64,000 bases of DNA from Chloroflexota bacterium. GTDB lineage: Bacteria > Chloroflexota > Dehalococcoidia > JACPEP01. Positions 53,207 through 60,980 of the stretch are shown in pieces. The position numbers and the translations under genes were made by a program. The DNA is taken from contig JACPEP010000042.1 in the NCBI GenBank assembly GCA_016183425.1, positions 87,794 through 151,793 on the forward strand. Reading direction: 5' to 3'. The first letter of the stretch is position 1. Each line of letters starts with the position of its first letter. The notes under the pieces are model-generated. The model made no database searches, was not told the DNA's origin, and worked only from the letters and a program-made list of their open reading frames with translations.

Positions 53207-54487
53207 TCAGCCGCCGCTGGCGGCAACATAGGGAATAGTCATGGGCCCCTGGGGGAAGACGGCCACGGTGGGAGAAGCGCCGTGCCTTTGGCGATACTCC
53301 TTTACCAGGGCCCGAAGGGTGTCCTCTATGCTGGGGCAGGGGAGGAGGCCGGCCAGCCTGGTTTCTTCGTCGGGTAAAGAAGAATGCAGGAAGACCCGCT
53401 TCTGGAGCAGGATCTGGGATTGAAGCTGCACCGCCCATTGGTCGAACATGGCGAAGCCGGGGCGGTTTATCATGTCTAGCAGCTCCTGGGGGGAGGAACC
53501 CATGCGGAGAAGCTGCACGTAGCGCTCCAGCCCCAGCCCCTCGGAGCATTGGCAGGCCATGATGATGGCTCCCCCATCTTTAGTCACCTGGGCGGCGGCG
53601 GACATGCCTTTGATGCCCTGGTAGAGGTTCAGGTCCAGGGGGTAGCCGGAGTTGGTGGTGACAGCGATGTCCAGGGGCTGGGGGAGGGGCTGCATGGCAC
53701 TTCGGCGGGCGAAGGCGATGCCGGCATCGTGGGCCGCCGCCAGCTCGCCGGCGAAGACGCCGGTGATCTCCTGGTCTCCATTCACGGTGACGTTGAGGAG
53801 GAAGGTAGGGCGGGTCATCAGGGCCGCCTCCCGGGCCTCGGCGAAGATGGGGTTCTCCATAGTCAGGCCCCAGGTGGCCTGGGGGTGGTTCAGCATCGGG
53901 GCGCTGTGGTTGCTCATGATGGTGCTGCTGCCGGCGATGCCGGGGAGCACCCCCTTGCCCCCGCCGCTAAAGCCAGCGAAGATGTGGGGCTCGATGAGGC
54001 CGGTGAGGATACGTACATCAGCCTCCAGATAGGCCGGGTTGATCCATAGGGGGCTGCCGAAACTGCTCTCGCCCAGATAGCGCATCTGAGCGTCGGCGTC
54101 GTGGTTCAAGATGGGGTAGCCCTCCGCCATCTCTCGTCCCAGCATGGCGACCAGCTCCTGGGGTGTGTTGGGGCGGTGCATCCCACAGGCGTTGATGAGA
54201 AGGATGTGGCTCCGGGGTATCCCCGCCGCCTCTATCTCCGCCAGAAGGGGGGGTAGCACCTGGTGGTTGGGGATGGGGCGGGTGAGATCGCTGAAGACCA
54301 CGGCTACTTTGTGTCTTGGAGAAAAGAGCTGTCGTAGAGGAGGGCTGTCTATGGGCTGTCTCAGGGCGCTGGCGATGGCGTGGTAGGGGTCGGGAAGGGT
54401 GGGGAGGTGCGCCGGCTCCACCACCCGGGTGTCCTGGGGCACATCTACCCATAAGCCACTCCTGCCATAAGCCAGTTTTATGCGCAC
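53207..54487 (-). CDS. LarA-like nickel-pincer racemase/epimerase family protein
   Basis: 426 residues. Family hallmarks: GMHRPNTPQE (His near 107), GLIEPHIFAGFSGGGKGVLPGI (His and Lys near 165-180, the cofactor-attachment Lys region) and SNHSAPMLNH. LarA racemises lactate with a nickel pincer nucleotide made by LarB, C and E, none of which is in the window. Relatives act on other 2-hydroxyacids; substrate unknown. It follows the nitrogenase-like operon but is separated by a hairpin and a palindrome. Confidence 0.88.
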   Translation of the reverse strand: MRIKLAYGRSGLWVDVPQDTRVVEPAHLPTLPDPYHAIASALRQPIDSPPLRQLFSPRHKVAVVFSDLTRPIPNHQVLPPLLAEIEAAGIPRSHILLINACGMHRPNTPQELVAMLGREMAEGYPILNHDADAQMRYLGESSFGSPLWINPAYLEADVRILTGLIEPHIFAGFSGGGKGVLPGIAGSSTIMSNHSAPMLNHPQATWGLTMENPIFAEAREAALMTRPTFLLNVTVNGDQEITGVFAGELAAAHDAGIAFARRSAMQPLPQPLDIAVTTNSGYPLDLNLYQGIKGMSAAAQVTKDGGAIIMACQCSEGLGLERYVQLLRMGSSPQELLDMINRPGFAMFDQWAVQLQSQILLQKRVFLHSSLPDEETRLAGLLPCPSIEDTLRALVKEYRQRHGASPTVAVFPQGPMTIPYVAASGG

Positions 54488-54598
54488 CGCTCTCCCTCAC
54501 AGCCAGTTGGATGAAAGGAATACTATCTTCCCTGGATAGCCAAGTCAAGGGGAAGTCTTCGGAGTGTTGGGAGGTATCTTCCTGCCCTGCCCTGAAGT

Positions 54599-54634
54599 AT
54601 TCCTAGCCCTGTCCTTAAGGACAGGGCTAGGAAT
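54599..54634. other. 36-bp perfect palindrome
   Basis: Arms of 18 bp meet without a loop at CTTAAG; core CCTAGCCCTGTCC. Lies between larA-like (start 54487) and the last nitrogenase-like gene. Could be a terminator-like hairpin or a dimeric regulator site for larA. Confidence 0.7.
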
Positions 54635-54705
54635 TCATCCGTAGTCTCGCCCTTTGAGGCGGCGACAGGGGACTCTCTTGCCTTTGGTTCGAGGCATCGA
54701 AGACA

Positions 54706-54735
54706 AAGGGGGGACGCCGTTAGGCGTCCCCCCTT
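54706..54735 (-). terminator. terminator hairpin of the nitrogenase-like operon
   Basis: Perfect 13-bp stem (AAGGGGGGACGCC) with a 4-nt loop, 28 bp after the NifH-like stop and followed by a short U-rich run on the minus strand. Confidence 0.7.
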
Positions 54736-54762
54736 AACACACGGTCTCCGTAAAGTGGGTTT

Positions 54763-55629
54763 TTAGGCCCTGGCCCCCACCAGCTCGCCGGGGGCGAAGC
54801 TGGTGGAATACTTGGCGACGATGGGTTTGATGTCATCCATAAAAATGGGCCGGGGCAGGTAGGTGTCCCTGTTGTTGAGGATCTTCAGGGCCAGGGTGCG
54901 ATATTCCTCGGCTTGGGCGGAGTTGGGGGCGGCCTGGATAACCGTCTGTCCCTTCAGTTCCGCCTCCTGGACGGTGCGGGAGCGCGGGATGTGGTGAATG
55001 ACAGGAAGGCCCATGAGCTCGGCCACCGCCTCCACGATCTTCTCCTCGTTAGGCACCCCCCGCATGTTGTTGATAATGCCGGCGACGGAGGTGTCGGCCC
55101 CGGCCTCATTCATGGTCAGCACAGCGCGCGCGATGTTGCTCATCTGCAGAAGGGTGAGGGCTTCGCCGCAGGTGACAATATACATCTCCCGCGCAAAGCC
55201 GGCCCGGATAGGCTGGCTAAAGCCGCCGCACACCACGTCTCCCAGAACGTCAAAGAGAGCGAAATCGATGTTGTGGCGTTCAAAGACCTTGAATTTGTTG
55301 AGGAACTCCAGGGCTACCATCACCCCTCGTCCGGCGCAGCCGGTGCCTGGCTTGGGACCGCCGGACTCTACCCCCAGTATGCCGTTGTAACCCTGGTGCA
55401 CGCAGCTCAGAATAACCTCTTCCGTGATCCCCCGCTTCCTCGTTTCGTCGAGGACGGTGGGCTTCAGTTTACCACCACAGAGGGTAGCGATGGAGTCTCG
55501 TTTGGGGTCGCACCCTACCTGCATCACCTTGAGACCCATGTGAGACAGGGCGGCGCTGATGTTGGACGAGGTGGTGGATTTGCCAATACCACCCTTGCCG
55601 TATACGGCGATGGTTCTCATTTCGGCCAT
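54763..55629 (-). CDS. NifH-like nitrogenase reductase-type protein, copy H1
   Basis: 288 residues. P-loop GKGGIGKSTT (11-20), switch I CDPKRD (C40, D41), [4Fe-4S] ligand Cys 98 in TGCAGRG and Cys 134 in DVLGDVVCGG. All NifH/BchL/CfbC catalytic residues are present, so it should be an ATP-dependent Fe protein donating electrons to a NifDK-like partner. Last gene of the four-gene operon, 45 bp after the other NifH-like gene. Not the classical NifH: overall sequence is divergent and no nif assembly genes are near. Confidence 0.9.
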   Translation of the reverse strand: MAEMRTIAVYGKGGIGKSTTSSNISAALSHMGLKVMQVGCDPKRDSIATLCGGKLKPTVLDETRKRGITEEVILSCVHQGYNGILGVESGGPKPGTGCAGRGVMVALEFLNKFKVFERHNIDFALFDVLGDVVCGGFSQPIRAGFAREMYIVTCGEALTLLQMSNIARAVLTMNEAGADTSVAGIINNMRGVPNEEKIVEAVAELMGLPVIHHIPRSRTVQEAELKGQTVIQAAPNSAQAEEYRTLALKILNNRDTYLPRPIFMDDIKPIVAKYSTSFAPGELVGARA

Positions 55630-55674
55630 TTTGATGATACCCCCTCTCTATCCTTCTCTAAGAATGACCCGTAC

Positions 55675-56508
55675 CTAATTTAGAGCCTGGTACTTTACCA
55701 GGAGTTGGATTATGTTTTCGATGGTGGTCGGAGTGGGGACCACGGCCCCGGGGTCTTCCCGAAGGCGGCGGGCCAGGGCACGGAAGACTTCCGCCTCCTG
55801 GGACTGAGGCCGTTTCTCCATAACGGTTCCTCCCTCCCCCTCTGCCTCCTGAAAGATACGGCTGCGAGGGATGTGGGCCAACACCGGAACGTGAAGCATC
55901 TCGCTGAACTCGGCCACCAGCTCTTCCTCCTGAGCGACGCCCCGCATGTTGTTGATAAAACCGCCCACCTTCACCTTAGCTGTCTTGGTGTTGGCCATTT
56001 CCTCGATGGCGATGCAGATGTTGTTGGCGGAGTACAGGGACATGAGCTCTCCGCTGGTGACGATATAGACCTGGTCGGCGAACCCACCCCTCATGGGCTG
56101 GGCGAAGCCGCCGCAAACGATGTCCCCCAAGACATCGTAAATAGCGAAGGTGGTGGCCATCTCTTCAATAAGCTTATATTTGGCCAGGTACTCCAGGGCC
56201 ATGGATACCCCGCGGCCAGCGCAGCCCGTGGCTGGCGGCGGCCCCCCCGACTCGGCGCACAAAACGCCCCGGTAGCCTTCCAAGATACAGTCCCTGACCG
56301 TCTCTCTGGAGACGCCCTTCACCCGGGTGTATTCCAGGATGTTTTTGTCCAGAAGGTCTCCTCCGTGGAGGAAGGAGGTAGAGTCTCCTTTGGGGGAGCA
56401 GCCCACCTGGAGTACCCTCTCTCCCGCTTCTACCAGGGCGACGGCCAGGTTGGCAGCCACCAGGGACTTTCCGATGCCCCCCTTGCCGTAGATGGCTATC
56501 TGTCTCAT
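55675..56508 (-). CDS. NifH-like nitrogenase reductase-type protein, copy H2
   Basis: 277 residues. P-loop GKGGIGKS (8-15), [4Fe-4S] ligands Cys 96 (TGCAGRG) and Cys 132 (DVLGDIVCGG). Switch I reads CSPKGD: the Asp equivalent to NifH Asp39 is Ser38, confirmed in the codons (TCC), while the second Asp is kept. The protein could bind nucleotide yet differ in hydrolysis or gating. It is clearly a paralogue of H1 but well diverged. The two genes are encoded side by side. Confidence 0.9.
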   Translation of the reverse strand: MRQIAIYGKGGIGKSLVAANLAVALVEAGERVLQVGCSPKGDSTSFLHGGDLLDKNILEYTRVKGVSRETVRDCILEGYRGVLCAESGGPPPATGCAGRGVSMALEYLAKYKLIEEMATTFAIYDVLGDIVCGGFAQPMRGGFADQVYIVTSGELMSLYSANNICIAIEEMANTKTAKVKVGGFINNMRGVAQEEELVAEFSEMLHVPVLAHIPRSRIFQEAEGEGGTVMEKRPQSQEAEVFRALARRLREDPGAVVPTPTTIENIIQLLVKYQALN

Positions 56509-56549
56509 GGGAACGCCTCCTCTCGTATGATTTGTTGTCTACCCATTTT

Positions 56550-57893
56550 TCAGCGCTTTCTCTTCGGTGGCGCTGGTGGACCGGTTCGGCTGAGGGGATC
56601 CCTTAGACGGTCTTCAAAGAGCTGATACATGGGCCGGTTTCCCTCGCGAAGACCCTGGAGAAGCTCTTTGACGAGGGTGGGGATGCCCCGAAAGCCCATG
56701 AAAGGCTCGCTGCCGCGCACCCGTAAGGGTTCCACGGGGATGGCCACCGGAACCAGGGGCACGTTGTACATATCGGCCAGGGCCAGATGGTTCCAGCTAC
56801 TGCCTCCCAGAAGGAGGTCCGGCTTGTCCTCTTTGAGCACTTCCTCAATCTGGAAGAGGTTGATGTGCACGTTTACCTGGGGGTTTATGCCTTTTTCCCG
56901 GATGACCTTTTGCAGCAGCTCGTCCGCCTGCTCGCTGGTGCCACTGGAGGTGCCCACTAAGATTGGCTCCACGCCTAGCTCACACAGGAAGTTGGTTAGG
57001 GCAATGGCTCGCTCAACGGCGGCGACGATGGCCACTCGCTTTCCTTTAAGCTGGCCGTCGAGCCGAGCCACCTCTTCTCGGGCCACGGCGGATTCTCGGG
57101 CGATGAGAGCCTCGACTTCCTTTTCGCGACCGGTGGCCCTGGCTATCTCCCGTAGCCAGGTGGCGGTGGCCTCAAAGCCATAAGGGGCCAAAGAATCGTG
57201 GCCTACGTAAGGTACGCCCCAGCGCTCTTTCATGGTGTGAGCGATGCTAGAGGCGGCGGGCTCGCAGAGGAGTACCCCCAAGGAAGCCTGGGACGCTCTC
57301 TGGATGTCCTCTAACGTGGTTCCGGAGGTGAAGACGCAACGGATGTGGAGTCCCAGCTCTTTGATGAGCCGCTCTATCTCCTCCAGGTTGGAGTCGTCGC
57401 TGAAGTAGCCCAGAAGGTTGATACTGTTCTCTTCTCTGGTTTCCGGCTCCTCCACCAGGGCATCTACTAACCGCTCCAGAGCCATGCGGTAGCCATCCAC
57501 CAGGTCTCCCTCGTAGCCACAGGTGGGTACGGCGATGAGCTTGGCGTTGACGTCGTACTGCACCTGCTGAACGATGTCTTCGATGTCCTCGCCGATGGTC
57601 TTGCTGGCGCAGGCGTTGAGGACGGCCATGACCCGGGGTTCGAACTGCCTGTCCGCCTGACGGATGTATGCCTTGGCCTTGTCCTCGGCGCCAAAGATGA
57701 CGTCGTTCTCCGAAAGGAGGGTACATTTCAGGTTCATTTTCCGGCCTCGGCCCACGGCGTTAATGGTGTTGAGGTAGGCCACGCAGCCGGGAGGGGAGTG
57801 CACCAGAACCAGGCTTTCTTTTATGGCATCCATGGCCTCCATGGCCCCCAGGGTCATGCAGGGGGCCTGGGCTTCAGAAAGTACCGTCGCCAT
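56550..57893 (-). CDS. nitrogenase-like component, K/N/B-type subunit
   Basis: 447 residues. Cluster-type Cys 12 (APCMT), 37 (SPPGC) and 95 (LNACASKTIGED), the triplet used for the P-cluster or a bridging [4Fe-4S] in NifDK/BchNB; Cys 210 (VLLCEP) aligns with the cofactor-ligand region of D-type subunits. The VIFGAEDKAKAYI segment is family-typical. Should pair with the D-like subunit. The C-terminus is Arg/Pro-rich. AGGGGGAGGTGA precedes the ATG. Confidence 0.88.
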   Translation of the reverse strand: MATVLSEAQAPCMTLGAMEAMDAIKESLVLVHSPPGCVAYLNTINAVGRGRKMNLKCTLLSENDVIFGAEDKAKAYIRQADRQFEPRVMAVLNACASKTIGEDIEDIVQQVQYDVNAKLIAVPTCGYEGDLVDGYRMALERLVDALVEEPETREENSINLLGYFSDDSNLEEIERLIKELGLHIRCVFTSGTTLEDIQRASQASLGVLLCEPAASSIAHTMKERWGVPYVGHDSLAPYGFEATATWLREIARATGREKEVEALIARESAVAREEVARLDGQLKGKRVAIVAAVERAIALTNFLCELGVEPILVGTSSGTSEQADELLQKVIREKGINPQVNVHINLFQIEEVLKEDKPDLLLGGSSWNHLALADMYNVPLVPVAIPVEPLRVRGSEPFMGFRGIPTLVKELLQGLREGNRPMYQLFEDRLRDPLSRTGPPAPPKRKR

Positions 57894-57912
57894 TTCTCAC
57901 CTCCCCCTTTAC

Positions 57913-59595
57913 CTACTTGTCTTTCTTTTCGAGGCGGATTCGAATCTCATCGGGGTTTCGGGAGCCGTAGGCCCGCTGGGCGAAATCCCAGACGGGATGA
58001 TCCGGGGAATACCTTTGGGAGGCCTTGGGCTGGTAACGCCATACCATATGTTGCGGCGTATAGACCACCTCTCGGATGAGGTCGATCTCCGGGGGCAACT
58101 CTACGGTGCCCTCGGGTAGCCCTATTCCTCGGCCAATGTCCCGAACGAATTTAACTGCCCCATTAAAGCCGTACCACGGCTCCTCATATTCCATGAGGGT
58201 GAGAAGACAGGGTTGGTATTCCTGTATTACCTCGGAGCGGGCAATCACAGCCTGAAGGTCGATGGGGTTGCCCACACCAGACTGGCCGGCCACTCCGGCA
58301 CCAAAGCTGCCGTGGTAGACGCGCTCCTGTCCCTTGCCGCCCTTGAGGGGAACCGGGGAGCCGCCGATGAGGAGCTCCGGTTGCAGGGTGTTAAAGACCT
58401 CCCGGATGGTCTCCTCTTTCATGCGGTCTCGAACGATCATCACGGGCGGCTCCAGGCCGTGCTGGGCGGCGATCTGCTTGATGCGCTCTGTGCGCTTACC
58501 CCAACCACCGGAGATGCGCAGGATAACGGGGTTCATCCCCAGCTCGGCGCAGTAGCGGTACATGGCCATGGGGTGGCTGATGCCGGAGCAGATGGAGACC
58601 TTCCTTCCCTTGAGGAACTTCTTGGCCTCGGCTATGCGTGCCTCTGAGCGGGCGGTCAGCTCCGCGCACAGCTCCCGGGCCTGTTTTTCTTTACCGAAGA
58701 AGCTGGCGATGCCCATGACCCAGTCGTTCATCACCCCCAGGCCCAAAGGAGACATCTCGATGCTGTAGTAGGGGATGTCGTACTTTTCTTTCATCAGCTC
58801 CGCCAGCTTGAGAACAGTGCTCTCGCACTTAAGAGCGTTGAGGTTGGCCTCGGCGGCGTGTTGGATGTCCTCTAGGGTGGCCTCAGCGGTGAAGACGCAG
58901 TTGATGTCAATGCCCAGCATTCTCAGGGGCCACTTAAGCTCCTCTATCTCCAATCGCCAGGGGTTGTGCTCCCCCAGGATGTTTACGGAATACTCCTTCT
59001 TCACCTTGGGGGGCTCGATGAGGTTGTTGAAAATGGCTTCATAGAGGCTCCAGTAGTCGGTGCGCTCGTCGGTGAGACAGAAGGCCCGGTAGCGATAGCC
59101 GCCGGCCTTCACCGCCACCACCTTCACGGGGATCTTTTTCATCACCCGTTGGGCCGCCAACTGTATGTCCTCGCCGATGAGGTCGGCGGCACAGGCGGCG
59201 AAGACGAAGACCATCTCCGGAGGCTTACCTGTGTCCTCGGGAAACATGGGATAGGAGCGGACGGTTTCGTAGGCCTCAATGATGGTCTTTTCCAGCTTCT
59301 CGCTAGCGCCAAAGACCACATCGTCTCGCTGCATATCGGTGGTGAAGATACGGGCAGCGGTGGGGTAGGGAGGGCCAGTGCTGTGGAACATGGTGAAGAA
59401 CTCGCCGGGTCCCCAGCCACAGCCTTTGGGTCCGTGAATGACCACTACGCTACGGTGCATAATGGCGGCCACGCGGCTGACGAACCATAGCCAGCAGGTG
59501 TCGTTGGGCATGCGCCATGGCAGTTCGCCCAGCTCGGTGGGGTCCTGGACGACGCAGGTAGCCCACTCCTGTCGCAGTTCCTCTAGTGCCTTCAT
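57913..59595 (-). CDS. nitrogenase-like component, D-type subunit
   Basis: 560 residues, longer than BchN/CfbD. Cluster-type Cys 34 (NDTCW), 59 (GPKGCG) and 135 (FAACAADLIGED). Cys 257 in LNALKCEST aligns with the NifD Cys275 FeMo-co ligand, whereas the position of His442 falls at about Thr466 in the LLTLMEYEEPWYGFNG block. So an active-site metal cofactor or a substrate held by Cys is possible, but canonical FeMo-co ligation is not complete. The last ~80 residues are an extra, basic extension. First gene of the operon, after GAAGGGAGGG. Confidence 0.9.
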   Translation of the reverse strand: MKALEELRQEWATCVVQDPTELGELPWRMPNDTCWLWFVSRVAAIMHRSVVVIHGPKGCGWGPGEFFTMFHSTGPPYPTAARIFTTDMQRDDVVFGASEKLEKTIIEAYETVRSYPMFPEDTGKPPEMVFVFAACAADLIGEDIQLAAQRVMKKIPVKVVAVKAGGYRYRAFCLTDERTDYWSLYEAIFNNLIEPPKVKKEYSVNILGEHNPWRLEIEELKWPLRMLGIDINCVFTAEATLEDIQHAAEANLNALKCESTVLKLAELMKEKYDIPYYSIEMSPLGLGVMNDWVMGIASFFGKEKQARELCAELTARSEARIAEAKKFLKGRKVSICSGISHPMAMYRYCAELGMNPVILRISGGWGKRTERIKQIAAQHGLEPPVMIVRDRMKEETIREVFNTLQPELLIGGSPVPLKGGKGQERVYHGSFGAGVAGQSGVGNPIDLQAVIARSEVIQEYQPCLLTLMEYEEPWYGFNGAVKFVRDIGRGIGLPEGTVELPPEIDLIREVVYTPQHMVWRYQPKASQRYSPDHPVWDFAQRAYGSRNPDEIRIRLEKKDK

Positions 59596-59658
59596 GGGCC
59601 CTCCCTTCTATGCCTTCGGTTAAAGGTTACCTGTTTTAAAAATGCTAGGAACGGCATC

Positions 59659-59687
59659 ATCGTATCATGGCAGAGAAGCTTTGTCAA
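59659..59687 (-). promoter_or_regulatory. promoter of the nitrogenase-like operon
   Basis: Minus strand TTGACA and TACGAT with a 17-bp spacer, about 64 bp upstream of the D-like start. No sigma54 (GG-N10-GC) element is obvious. A direct repeat AATGTT-CTA-AATGTT lies upstream of the -35 (near 59720-59735) and could be a regulator site. Confidence 0.72.
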
Positions 59688-59776
59688 GTGATTAAAGTAA
59701 AAAATGGGCAAATAATTGTAACATTTAGAACATTGTCGCATAGATAAAGCGTCAAAAATGTCTCATGGGGGGGGGC

Positions 59777-59805
59777 TTGACGGCGGTTGGTGACTCCTCT
59801 ATAGT
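59777..59805 (+). promoter_or_regulatory. promoter of the cupin pair
   Basis: TTGACG and TATAGT, 17-bp spacer, about 85 bp before ATG 59890, divergent from the nitrogenase-like promoter about 90 bp away. A run of 9 G (59767-59775) lies directly upstream of the -35. Confidence 0.72.
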
Positions 59806-59889
59806 AGTGCCGTCGTTGGAGGAGGGGCTTCTCATTCTCCGGCCCCTCAGAAGAGCAAAGTACCGTGATCCATAGAAGGAGGAGTACGC

Positions 59890-60387
59890 ATGGGAAAGAA
59901 AGACGATCGGGTATACGTTCGCGGCATCACCAGCGCTGACTACGGGCTGGAAGGAGAGCGGCAGCGCATGCTCAAAGCCCCCCGGGTGGTTAAGGGCAAG
60001 GATCAGGAATGGGAGGGAGGGCCTCTTCACTGGAACAAGACCATAATCTGTCCCCAGACCGTTCCCGCCCAGACCCTGTATATGCATGTGGAGGCCATGG
60101 CTCCGGGTGCCCACTCTCAAAAACACGGGCACCAGAACGAAGCCATGTTTTACATTCTGGATGGAAAGGGATACGAGATCCACGACGGTAAGCGCTACGA
60201 ATGGCAGGCCGGGGACGCCGTGGTCGTCCACGCCGGCTGTGTCCATCAGCACTTCAATGCCGATCCCAACAAGCCGGCCCGCATGCTGGTCATCAAGACC
60301 AAGCCCATGTACAACTTCATGAATCTCAACGAGCAGGGCCTGGTGGAGCCGGGTCCCCAAGGCCCTCCCTTCGATCCCGACGCCTAG
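59890..60387 (+). CDS. cupin protein 1 next to the nitrogenase-like operon
   Basis: 165 residues. Motif 1 SQKHGHQNEAMFYILDG (H-x-H and Glu) and motif 2 VHAGCVHQHFNAD (His) are a complete cupin metal site. A short Met/Arg-rich N-terminal part precedes the barrel. GAAGGAGGAG ribosome site. Paralogous to the next gene in the last part of the fold (both end HQHFNAD). Divergent with, and possibly coregulated with, the nitrogenase-like genes. Confidence 0.85.
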   Translation: MGKKDDRVYVRGITSADYGLEGERQRMLKAPRVVKGKDQEWEGGPLHWNKTIICPQTVPAQTLYMHVEAMAPGAHSQKHGHQNEAMFYILDGKGYEIHDGKRYEWQAGDAVVVHAGCVHQHFNADPNKPARMLVIKTKPMYNFMNLNEQGLVEPGPQGPPFDPDA

Positions 60388-60428: not shown

Positions 60429-60980
60429 ATGCCGCACGAGGAATCGCAGCGCTCCCAGCTCAGCAAGGCCGCCGCTTCATATTACCAAGAGAGACTGAAG
60501 CAGGCTCAGGAAGACAAGGTCAGGGACGATAGCCTGAAAAAGGTGGTGAAGGCCGAGGAGATGCCCTGGGAGAACTCCCCCCAGGGCCGCATCAAGCATG
60601 TGATGAACGAAACCACTGGTGCCCGGGTCAAGACGGTGGATGCCTTTATCCTGGAGTTGCCCCCAGGGGGACGCTCCGGTAAGCACCGCCATTTTGCGGA
60701 GGAATGCTTCTTCGTCCTGGAGGGGAGGGGGTACGACCTTCACTGGGACGTGGATGTGGAGCTAAAAGACAAGTACTATCGGAAGGCGCAGGACAAAAGC
60801 CAGCGCTTTGACTGGGAAGAAGGGGACTGCGTTTACATTCCGGTGAACACGGTGCACCAGCACTTCAACGCCGATGCCGGAAAGCCAGCCCGCATCATCT
60901 GTGCCACGAATCGGGCCTACCGGCTGGTGGGCTACGGCGATATTGAGCAGCTAGAGAACGCACCGGATTATAAGCCCTGA
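60429..60980 (+). CDS. cupin protein 2
   Basis: 183 residues from ATG 60429 (GAAGGAGAAA). A helical N-terminal region (about 1-60), then the barrel with SGKHRHFAEECFFVLEG and PVNTVHQHFNAD. The extra DLHWDVDVELKDKYY insertion makes it larger than cupin 1. Probably a metal-dependent oxygenase/isomerase or binding protein for an organic acid. Confidence 0.85.
   Translation: MPHEESQRSQLSKAAASYYQERLKQAQEDKVRDDSLKKVVKAEEMPWENSPQGRIKHVMNETTGARVKTVDAFILELPPGGRSGKHRHFAEECFFVLEGRGYDLHWDVDVELKDKYYRKAQDKSQRFDWEEGDCVYIPVNTVHQHFNADAGKPARIICATNRAYRLVGYGDIEQLENAPDYKP

Follow-up and report, generated by a model that had tools for sequence, protein, structure and literature searches.

Methylthio-alkane reductase, which consists of MarHDK and is assisted by the NifB-like protein MarB, carries P- and [Fe8S9C]-clusters and is reported not to reduce N2 (PMC12552129). 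Isethionate reductase (IsrBHDK) is a Group IV nitrogenase-like enzyme with a radical S-adenosylmethionine partner (PMC11423573). In Roseiflexus, a member of the phylum Chloroflexota, an active NifDK is obtained with NifH and NifB alone (PMC11573651). The DPOR (BchLNB) and CfbCD systems share the fold and the ATP-driven Fe protein, contain [4Fe-4S] clusters only and act on tetrapyrroles. In the papers covered, the Fe proteins NifH, BchL and MarH are homodimers, so that the role of each of the two ATP sites is hard to tell. We analyzed a window of 64,000 nucleotides (contig JACPEP010000042.1 of assembly GCA_016183425.1) from a Chloroflexota bacterium of the class Dehalococcoidia, which contains an operon with one catalytic pair, D-K, and two unlike Fe protein paralogs, H2 and H1. 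Comparison of the sequences leads us to favor, with a confidence somewhat above even, the prediction that the product of this operon is a nitrogenase-like reductase to which an H1-H2 heterodimer, instead of the usual homodimer, delivers electrons in an ATP-driven manner. Neither a heterodimeric Fe protein nor an H2-H1 fusion was found in the literature covered, subscription papers lying outside that coverage.

The four open reading frames are all on the minus strand and form a single leftward operon D-K-H2-H1, with intergenic gaps of 19, 41 and 45 bp, flanked by a promoter and a terminator hairpin; the operon, its promoter and its hairpin had already been recognized in a first-pass annotation made from the DNA sequence alone. 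The features are as follows.

57913..59595, minus strand: D, NifD/NifE-type catalytic subunit, 560 amino acids (PF00148 Oxidored_nitro, 217 bits)
56550..57893, minus strand: K, second catalytic subunit, 447 amino acids (PF00148 Oxidored_nitro, 325 bits)
55675..56508, minus strand: H2, Fe protein paralog with GCSPK in switch I, 277 amino acids (PF00142 Fer4_NifH, 283 bits)
54763..55629, minus strand: H1, Fe protein paralog with canonical GCDPK, 288 amino acids (PF00142 Fer4_NifH, 299 bits)
59659..59687, minus strand: sigma-70-type promoter, TTGACA-17-TACGAT with TG (10/12 matches)
54708..54733, minus strand: terminator hairpin 3' of H1, an 11-bp G+C-rich stem (-27.2 kcal/mol) followed by TTTGTCTT
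56395..56397, minus strand: codon for the clade-diagnostic Ser38 of H2 (alignments, motif count)
58825..58827, minus strand: codon of Cys257 of D, at the position of NifD Cys275 (alignments)
57264..57266, minus strand: codon of Cys210 of K, at the cofactor-Cys position (the K of the second operon of the genome has Ala here)

H1 and H2 are 48% identical to each other, and both retain an intact P-loop and the two Cys residues of the [4Fe-4S] cluster (C96 and C132 in H2, C98 and C134 in H1). An H2 profile search of 5.8 billion proteins, with 8000 candidates scored and the best 120 listed, supplied further relatives. In a tree of 29 rows, H1 and H2 belong to separate clades (support 100/96 and 96/88, respectively), and in a quick tree of 67 rows, composed of these 29, 33 sequences hand-picked for spread from the best 120 and five fusion fragments, the Shimodaira-Hasegawa-like approximate likelihood ratio test (SH-aLRT) value is 99 for each of the two groups. 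Judged by these trees, H1 and H2 are separate, old clades; since both have members in other genomes, the origin of the pair by local duplication was rejected. The clades also differ in the switch I motif: GCSPK is present in 4 of the 29 rows, exactly the H2-type ones, and the remaining 25 read GCDPK; on the 67-row quick tree one change suffices for the Asp-to-Ser label. The altered position (Ser38 in H2, Asp41 in H1), the first of switch I, is Asp39 in Fe protein numbering. Switch I spans residues 39-69 of the Fe protein and is the element through which the nucleotide state acts on docking (PMC7963043). Among the best 120 of the 8000 candidates, 82 contain GCSPK, 31 GCDPK and five other forms (GCNPK and GLSPK twice each, GASPK once), the motif being absent from two. 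Holders of GCSPK named among the matches listed include Tectomicrobia, Latescibacteria, Eiseniibacteriota, Schekmanbacteria, Clostridia and Chloroflexota, and the two named Halobacteriota archaea among these matches have GCDPK. When 400 genomes of the phylum were scanned with H2, no match above 303 bits was obtained outside the source genome, the two H2 proteins of which score 544-545, and neither G023 nor G007, two genomes of the class discussed below, was among the matches listed. Three GCDPK proteins from the H2 search (P0228, P0232 and P0234) have an altered P-loop, GKAGIGKS; of these, P0228 and P0234 are placed within the H1 clade. A third H type (H3, with GCDPK; L099 in G007 and L135 in G023) belongs with H1 and H2 to one larger group; one H3-type gene is located 3' of D-K and another near a peptide-type ATP-binding cassette (ABC) permease.

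The arrangement is not confined to the window. The source genome (G000; 2.70 Mb in 52 contigs, 95% complete) has, on contig C1, a second operon in which D, K, H2 and H1 follow one another as they do in the window. Identities between the two operons are 47% for D, 50% for K, 74% for H1 and 65% for H2; these are the only two D-K (component 1) pairs of the genome, which has four strong NifH matches. In the class, the D profile matched 15 of 393 genomes, including the source genome, and a third operon, in D-K-H-H order, was identified in G023, a genome from a different family; the first H of this operon shares 51-53% identity with the H2s, and the second 56-59% with the H1s. The two types also occur fused. 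A 605-residue frame in G007 consists of two H domains, an H2-type N-terminal half and an H1-type C-terminal half, and the best 120 matches include three partial H2-H1 fusions, P0189, P0211 (from KSB1) and P0214. All four keep the H2-H1 gene order of the operon, and their H1 halves form two distinct groups inside the H1 clade of the 67-row quick tree, which suggests two separate fusion events, each in operon order. A further protein, P0137, has two H segments and is NifH-like with a repeated part; it was excluded from the fusions.

The first-pass annotation was thus right in seeing two unlike NifH paralogs beside one catalytic pair, both with the P-loop and the cluster Cys. Local duplication of the two-H arrangement had been set beforehand as a test of that observation, and the arrangement recurs in a second operon, in another family (G023) and in fused genes. 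The proposal of alternating or dedicated Fe proteins in that annotation is not supported in this wording: given the adjacency of H1 and H2 in three operons and the four fusions, which point to one complex, the two proteins are most likely partners in a heterodimeric Fe protein. Since the functional unit of Fe proteins is a dimer, with a single cluster and a pair of sites for ATP, the simplest joint complex would be H1-H2. An artificially linked BchL dimer is active, with ATP needed at both sites (PMC7948495), and serves as a model for the fusions, indicating that a fused Fe protein dimer is workable.

In the catalytic pair, D contains the cluster-type residues C34, C59 and C135 and, additionally, C257, of the type that binds the iron-molybdenum cofactor (FeMo-co), and K contains C12, C37 and C95 together with C210 at the cofactor position; the three cluster Cys per subunit listed in the first-pass annotation are all present, but that list was incomplete as it lacked the fourth Cys of each. 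With Rahnella NifD, NifK, NifE and NifN as the named reference, D and K together keep all six P-cluster Cys and the equivalent of Cys275, as in Mo-nitrogenase; in K, the cofactor-position Cys is present in the window operon and replaced by Ala in the second operon. The cofactor His442 position of D is occupied by Thr466 in a profile alignment with Clostridium NifD or by Met in a MAFFT alignment, in neither case by His; the corresponding residue, depending on the alignment, is Asp or Met in the D of the second operon and His or Met in P0003, a related D protein. The residue numbers for these Cys and His positions are those of Azotobacter. Cys463 of D (window 58198-58209), common to both D proteins of the genome, lies three residues ahead of the Thr/Asp that the profile aligns to His442, and is a possible other cluster ligand.

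The absence of nifB noted in the first-pass annotation holds within the window and not genome-wide: a NifB in one frame is encoded on contig C22 (C22:277-1809, L068; 532 bits against a cut-off of 343.65). In the source genome, no NifEN or NifDK was detected, the two D-K pairs being the only ones found, and the best NifV match reaches 312 bits against a cut-off of 463. A NifB match is present in all three genomes with H2 and H1 and in none of 18 genomes that we selected from the class as D-negative controls. Of the 13 other D-positive class genomes (including G023 and G007; G552, with a weak D match, was left out), nine have a NifB match at E 1e-30, two of them over the cut-off. Taken together, the six P-cluster Cys, the FeMo-co-type Cys and the genomic NifB make it likely, by analogy with methylthio-alkane reductase, that D-K contains both a P-cluster and an [Fe8S9C]-type cluster derived from NifB. 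Next to the NifB gene of the source genome is a gene for cobyrinate a,c-diamide synthase (544 bits against a cut-off of 254), which is followed, according to the open reading frames, by an adenosyltransferase-like gene and a B12/iron-type ABC transporter.

Under the proposed mechanism, a single [4Fe-4S] cluster would bridge H1 and H2, ligated by two Cys from either protein. The H1-H2 dimer would dock on the D-K face in a single fixed orientation, and the ATP sites would therefore differ in their jobs, as would the switch I contacts. Electrons would reach the NifB-derived [Fe8S9C]-type cluster by way of a P-cluster that has Cys ligands only and sits where D and K meet; Cys257 of D and, perhaps, Cys210 of K would hold the [Fe8S9C]-type cluster. 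Given the lack of NifEN, of an over-cut-off NifV and of a conserved His442, this cofactor would be all-iron or contain an unknown apical metal, and the substrate would be organic. Reductive cleavage of a C-S or another C-heteroatom bond is the first reaction that we would tentatively put forward, by analogy with methylthio-alkane reductase.

Several observations weigh against this reading. A fusion could also join subunits that form separate homodimers, and neither H1 nor H2 has lost the P-loop or the two cluster Cys required for a homodimer. The quick tree does not settle the node above the two fusion groups, and one fusion that was split later could also account for them; three of the four fusions (P0189, P0211 and P0214) are partial, and the fourth comes from a genome, G007, with 9% estimated contamination, with no D or K found around it on the 14 kb fetched. 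The G007-type fusion, moreover, has the signature Lys replaced by Thr in the C-terminal half and further switch residues changed in the N-terminal half; this branch may be a special case. The replacement of His442 varies among the window D, the D of contig C1 and P0003, and with the alignment method. NifB is encoded on another contig (37 kb), adjoining cobyrinate a,c-diamide synthase and outside the operon; no NifB match at E 1e-30 was obtained in G015, G087, G517 and G589, and the NifB-less G015 (85% complete) carries a D-K pair. Finally, the guess on the substrate draws on analogy and on sulfur genes near one of the three operons. The retained P-loops and cluster Cys are also what one would expect if H1 and H2 were two separate homodimeric Fe proteins, one for catalysis and the other for maturation of the P-cluster or cofactor, as is the case of NifH. 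The switch I change of H2 could weaken ATP-coupled turnover while sparing a maturation role, and single-H relatives, of the H3 type, do exist. Nevertheless, a joint complex agrees better with the two groups of H2-H1 fusions and with the neighboring position of H1 and H2 in each of the three operons, and we consider separate homodimers rather unlikely.

The other explanations assign the operon to a known system, and here the curated NCBIfam models are informative: none of D, K, H2 and H1 reaches a cut-off. Against NifH, H1 and H2 score 317 and 298 bits (cut-off 394), against BchL 195 and 192 (345), against BchX 176 and 156 (331), and against CfbC 309 and 286 (402). D scores 123 bits against NifD (cut-off 654), 142 against NifE (505) and best, 171, against the alpha-chain subfamily (486); the best model for K is NifE (194 against 505), and CfbD gives 59 bits for K and 45 for D (268). 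The other refuting outcome named in the first-pass annotation, placement of all four proteins inside a characterized clade, thus did not occur for those clades that could be tested. A NifEN-independent nitrogenase resembling the one of Roseiflexus sp. RS-1, but with an additional, spare NifH, would agree with the presence of NifB and absence of NifEN in a genome of the same phylum (PMC11573651); in Roseiflexus, however, the FeMo-co surroundings are conserved and there is one NifH, whereas here the NifH and NifD scores are low, His442 is not consistently present, NifV is below the cut-off and, in trees without a named Roseiflexus sequence, the window D is outside the NifD/NifE clade. We regard this explanation as very improbable, and nitrogen fixation by D-K-H2-H1 as unlikely, in line with the first-pass annotation. 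An ordinary methylthio-alkane or isethionate reductase with an acquired second H gene is improbable as well. The former, the best biochemical analog, shares the NifB-type maturase, the six P-cluster Cys and the Fe1-ligating Cys and, likewise, is not a nitrogenase (PMC12552129), and the latter is likewise nitrogenase-like, of Group IV, with a radical SAM partner (PMC11423573). Nevertheless, a MarD piece (residues 86-374, thus ending ahead of Arg428-His429 of loop I) belongs to a 12-row clade different from that of the window D (SH-aLRT 100 in a quick tree of 74 rows), there is one MarH, the operon has no NifB-like gene and the H2 family is represented in several phyla. The Mar operon has the order H-D-K. 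Isethionate reductase, as described, has one IsrH and an IsrB that is not NifB. Tetrapyrrole reductases such as BchLNB and CfbCD have the fold and the ATP-driven Fe protein in common with the system described here. That the operon encodes one of this type, with the genomic NifB serving something else, is very improbable given the low BchL, CfbC and CfbD scores and the full set of six P-cluster Cys and FeMo-co Cys, which is described as not fully conserved in BchNB and CfbD (PMC12552129).

K combines D-type and K-type traits. The D profile gives 214 and 183 bits for the two K proteins of the genome, compared with 174.5 for the next sequence outside the D group; D, K and P0007 are on one side of the trees (support 90/52 and 94/90), and constraints placing K with the K-types were rejected (p 0.019 and 0.030). 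In contrast, when P0007 was moved along with K, p was 0.074, and the Cys spacing of K, 25/58, is that of NifK. The AlphaFold2 model of K (mean predicted local distance difference test score, pLDDT, 83) is nearest to DPOR chains, then to a NifEN chain, AnfK, VnfK and NifK, with VnfD and NifD lower; for D (mean pLDDT 74, with low confidence for residues 419-457), the best fold matches are NifEN, DPOR and VnfD chains, within 1 Z. Thus, the trees, the D-profile score and Cys210 indicate a D-type K, whereas the fold comparison and the Cys spacing indicate a K-type. A bolder and, in our estimate, unlikely proposal is that of a widespread branch of the nitrogenase superfamily with an obligate H2-H1 Fe protein, split roles of the ATP sites and one-way docking, in which both catalytic subunits would be D-type by descent or looks, each able to hold a NifB-derived cluster.

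The D search (5.8 billion proteins, 7995 candidates scored) yielded the two copies of the source genome, P0003 (42%) and two 25% matches, and no match was confirmed when contigs of genomes and viruses were scanned with D. The view of D as a rare orphan was rejected, because the H2 search, with its many relatives, suggests that the scarcity reflects poor reach of the D search. The K of the second operon is absent from the best 120 of 161 matches of the K search. P0142 (an H2) and P0003 (a D), whose longest contigs agree in length (11083), suggest one more linked pair. Other layouts in the class include D-K-H-NifB-like with a single H in G533 and G636 (L087, L089), where the short NifB-like proteins score 255-257 bits against 343.65, and a D-K-H at a contig end in G007, the two-H fusion being on another contig. 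In G023, a third H is on a separate contig, and D or D-K is found at four more places (L094, L096, L097 and L098) with no H on the stretches fetched; this expansion of catalytic subunits may share one H set.

In the promoter scan, positions 54400-60000 yielded 4 promoter-like sites compared with 1.5 expected in shuffles. The hairpin at 54708-54733 was not reported by the terminator pattern scan, which gave 5 others with 4.8 expected. Over the window, Rfam gave nothing at gathering score, and no tRNA was found. Beyond the hairpin is a gene for a LarA-like nickel racemase (window 53207-54487, minus strand; 443 bits, narrowly short of its 460-bit cut-off), which was rejected as an operon member because the hairpin and a promoter-like site of its own intervene. 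Two cupin proteins (59890-60387 and 60429-60980, plus strand) are divergent from the promoter region of the operon. The second operon is near a gene for a peptide-type binding protein, the G023 operon near a sulfur transporter with ThiF and a PALP (cysteine-synthase-type) enzyme, and the G007 fusion is surrounded by thiolases and ChsH2-like proteins; no gene was seen to recur beside all four loci.

If the H1-H2 heterodimer is real, ordinary mutants would suffice to tell its two ATP sites and the direction of docking apart, since one of its halves naturally carries a fixed residue change. It would also mean another NifB-dependent enzyme beside nitrogenase and methylthio-alkane reductase, with a bearing on the evolution of the clusters before nitrogen fixation. 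Given that members are named in several largely uncultured phyla, the substrate may be relevant to the way in which carbon or sulfur is turned over under anaerobic conditions.

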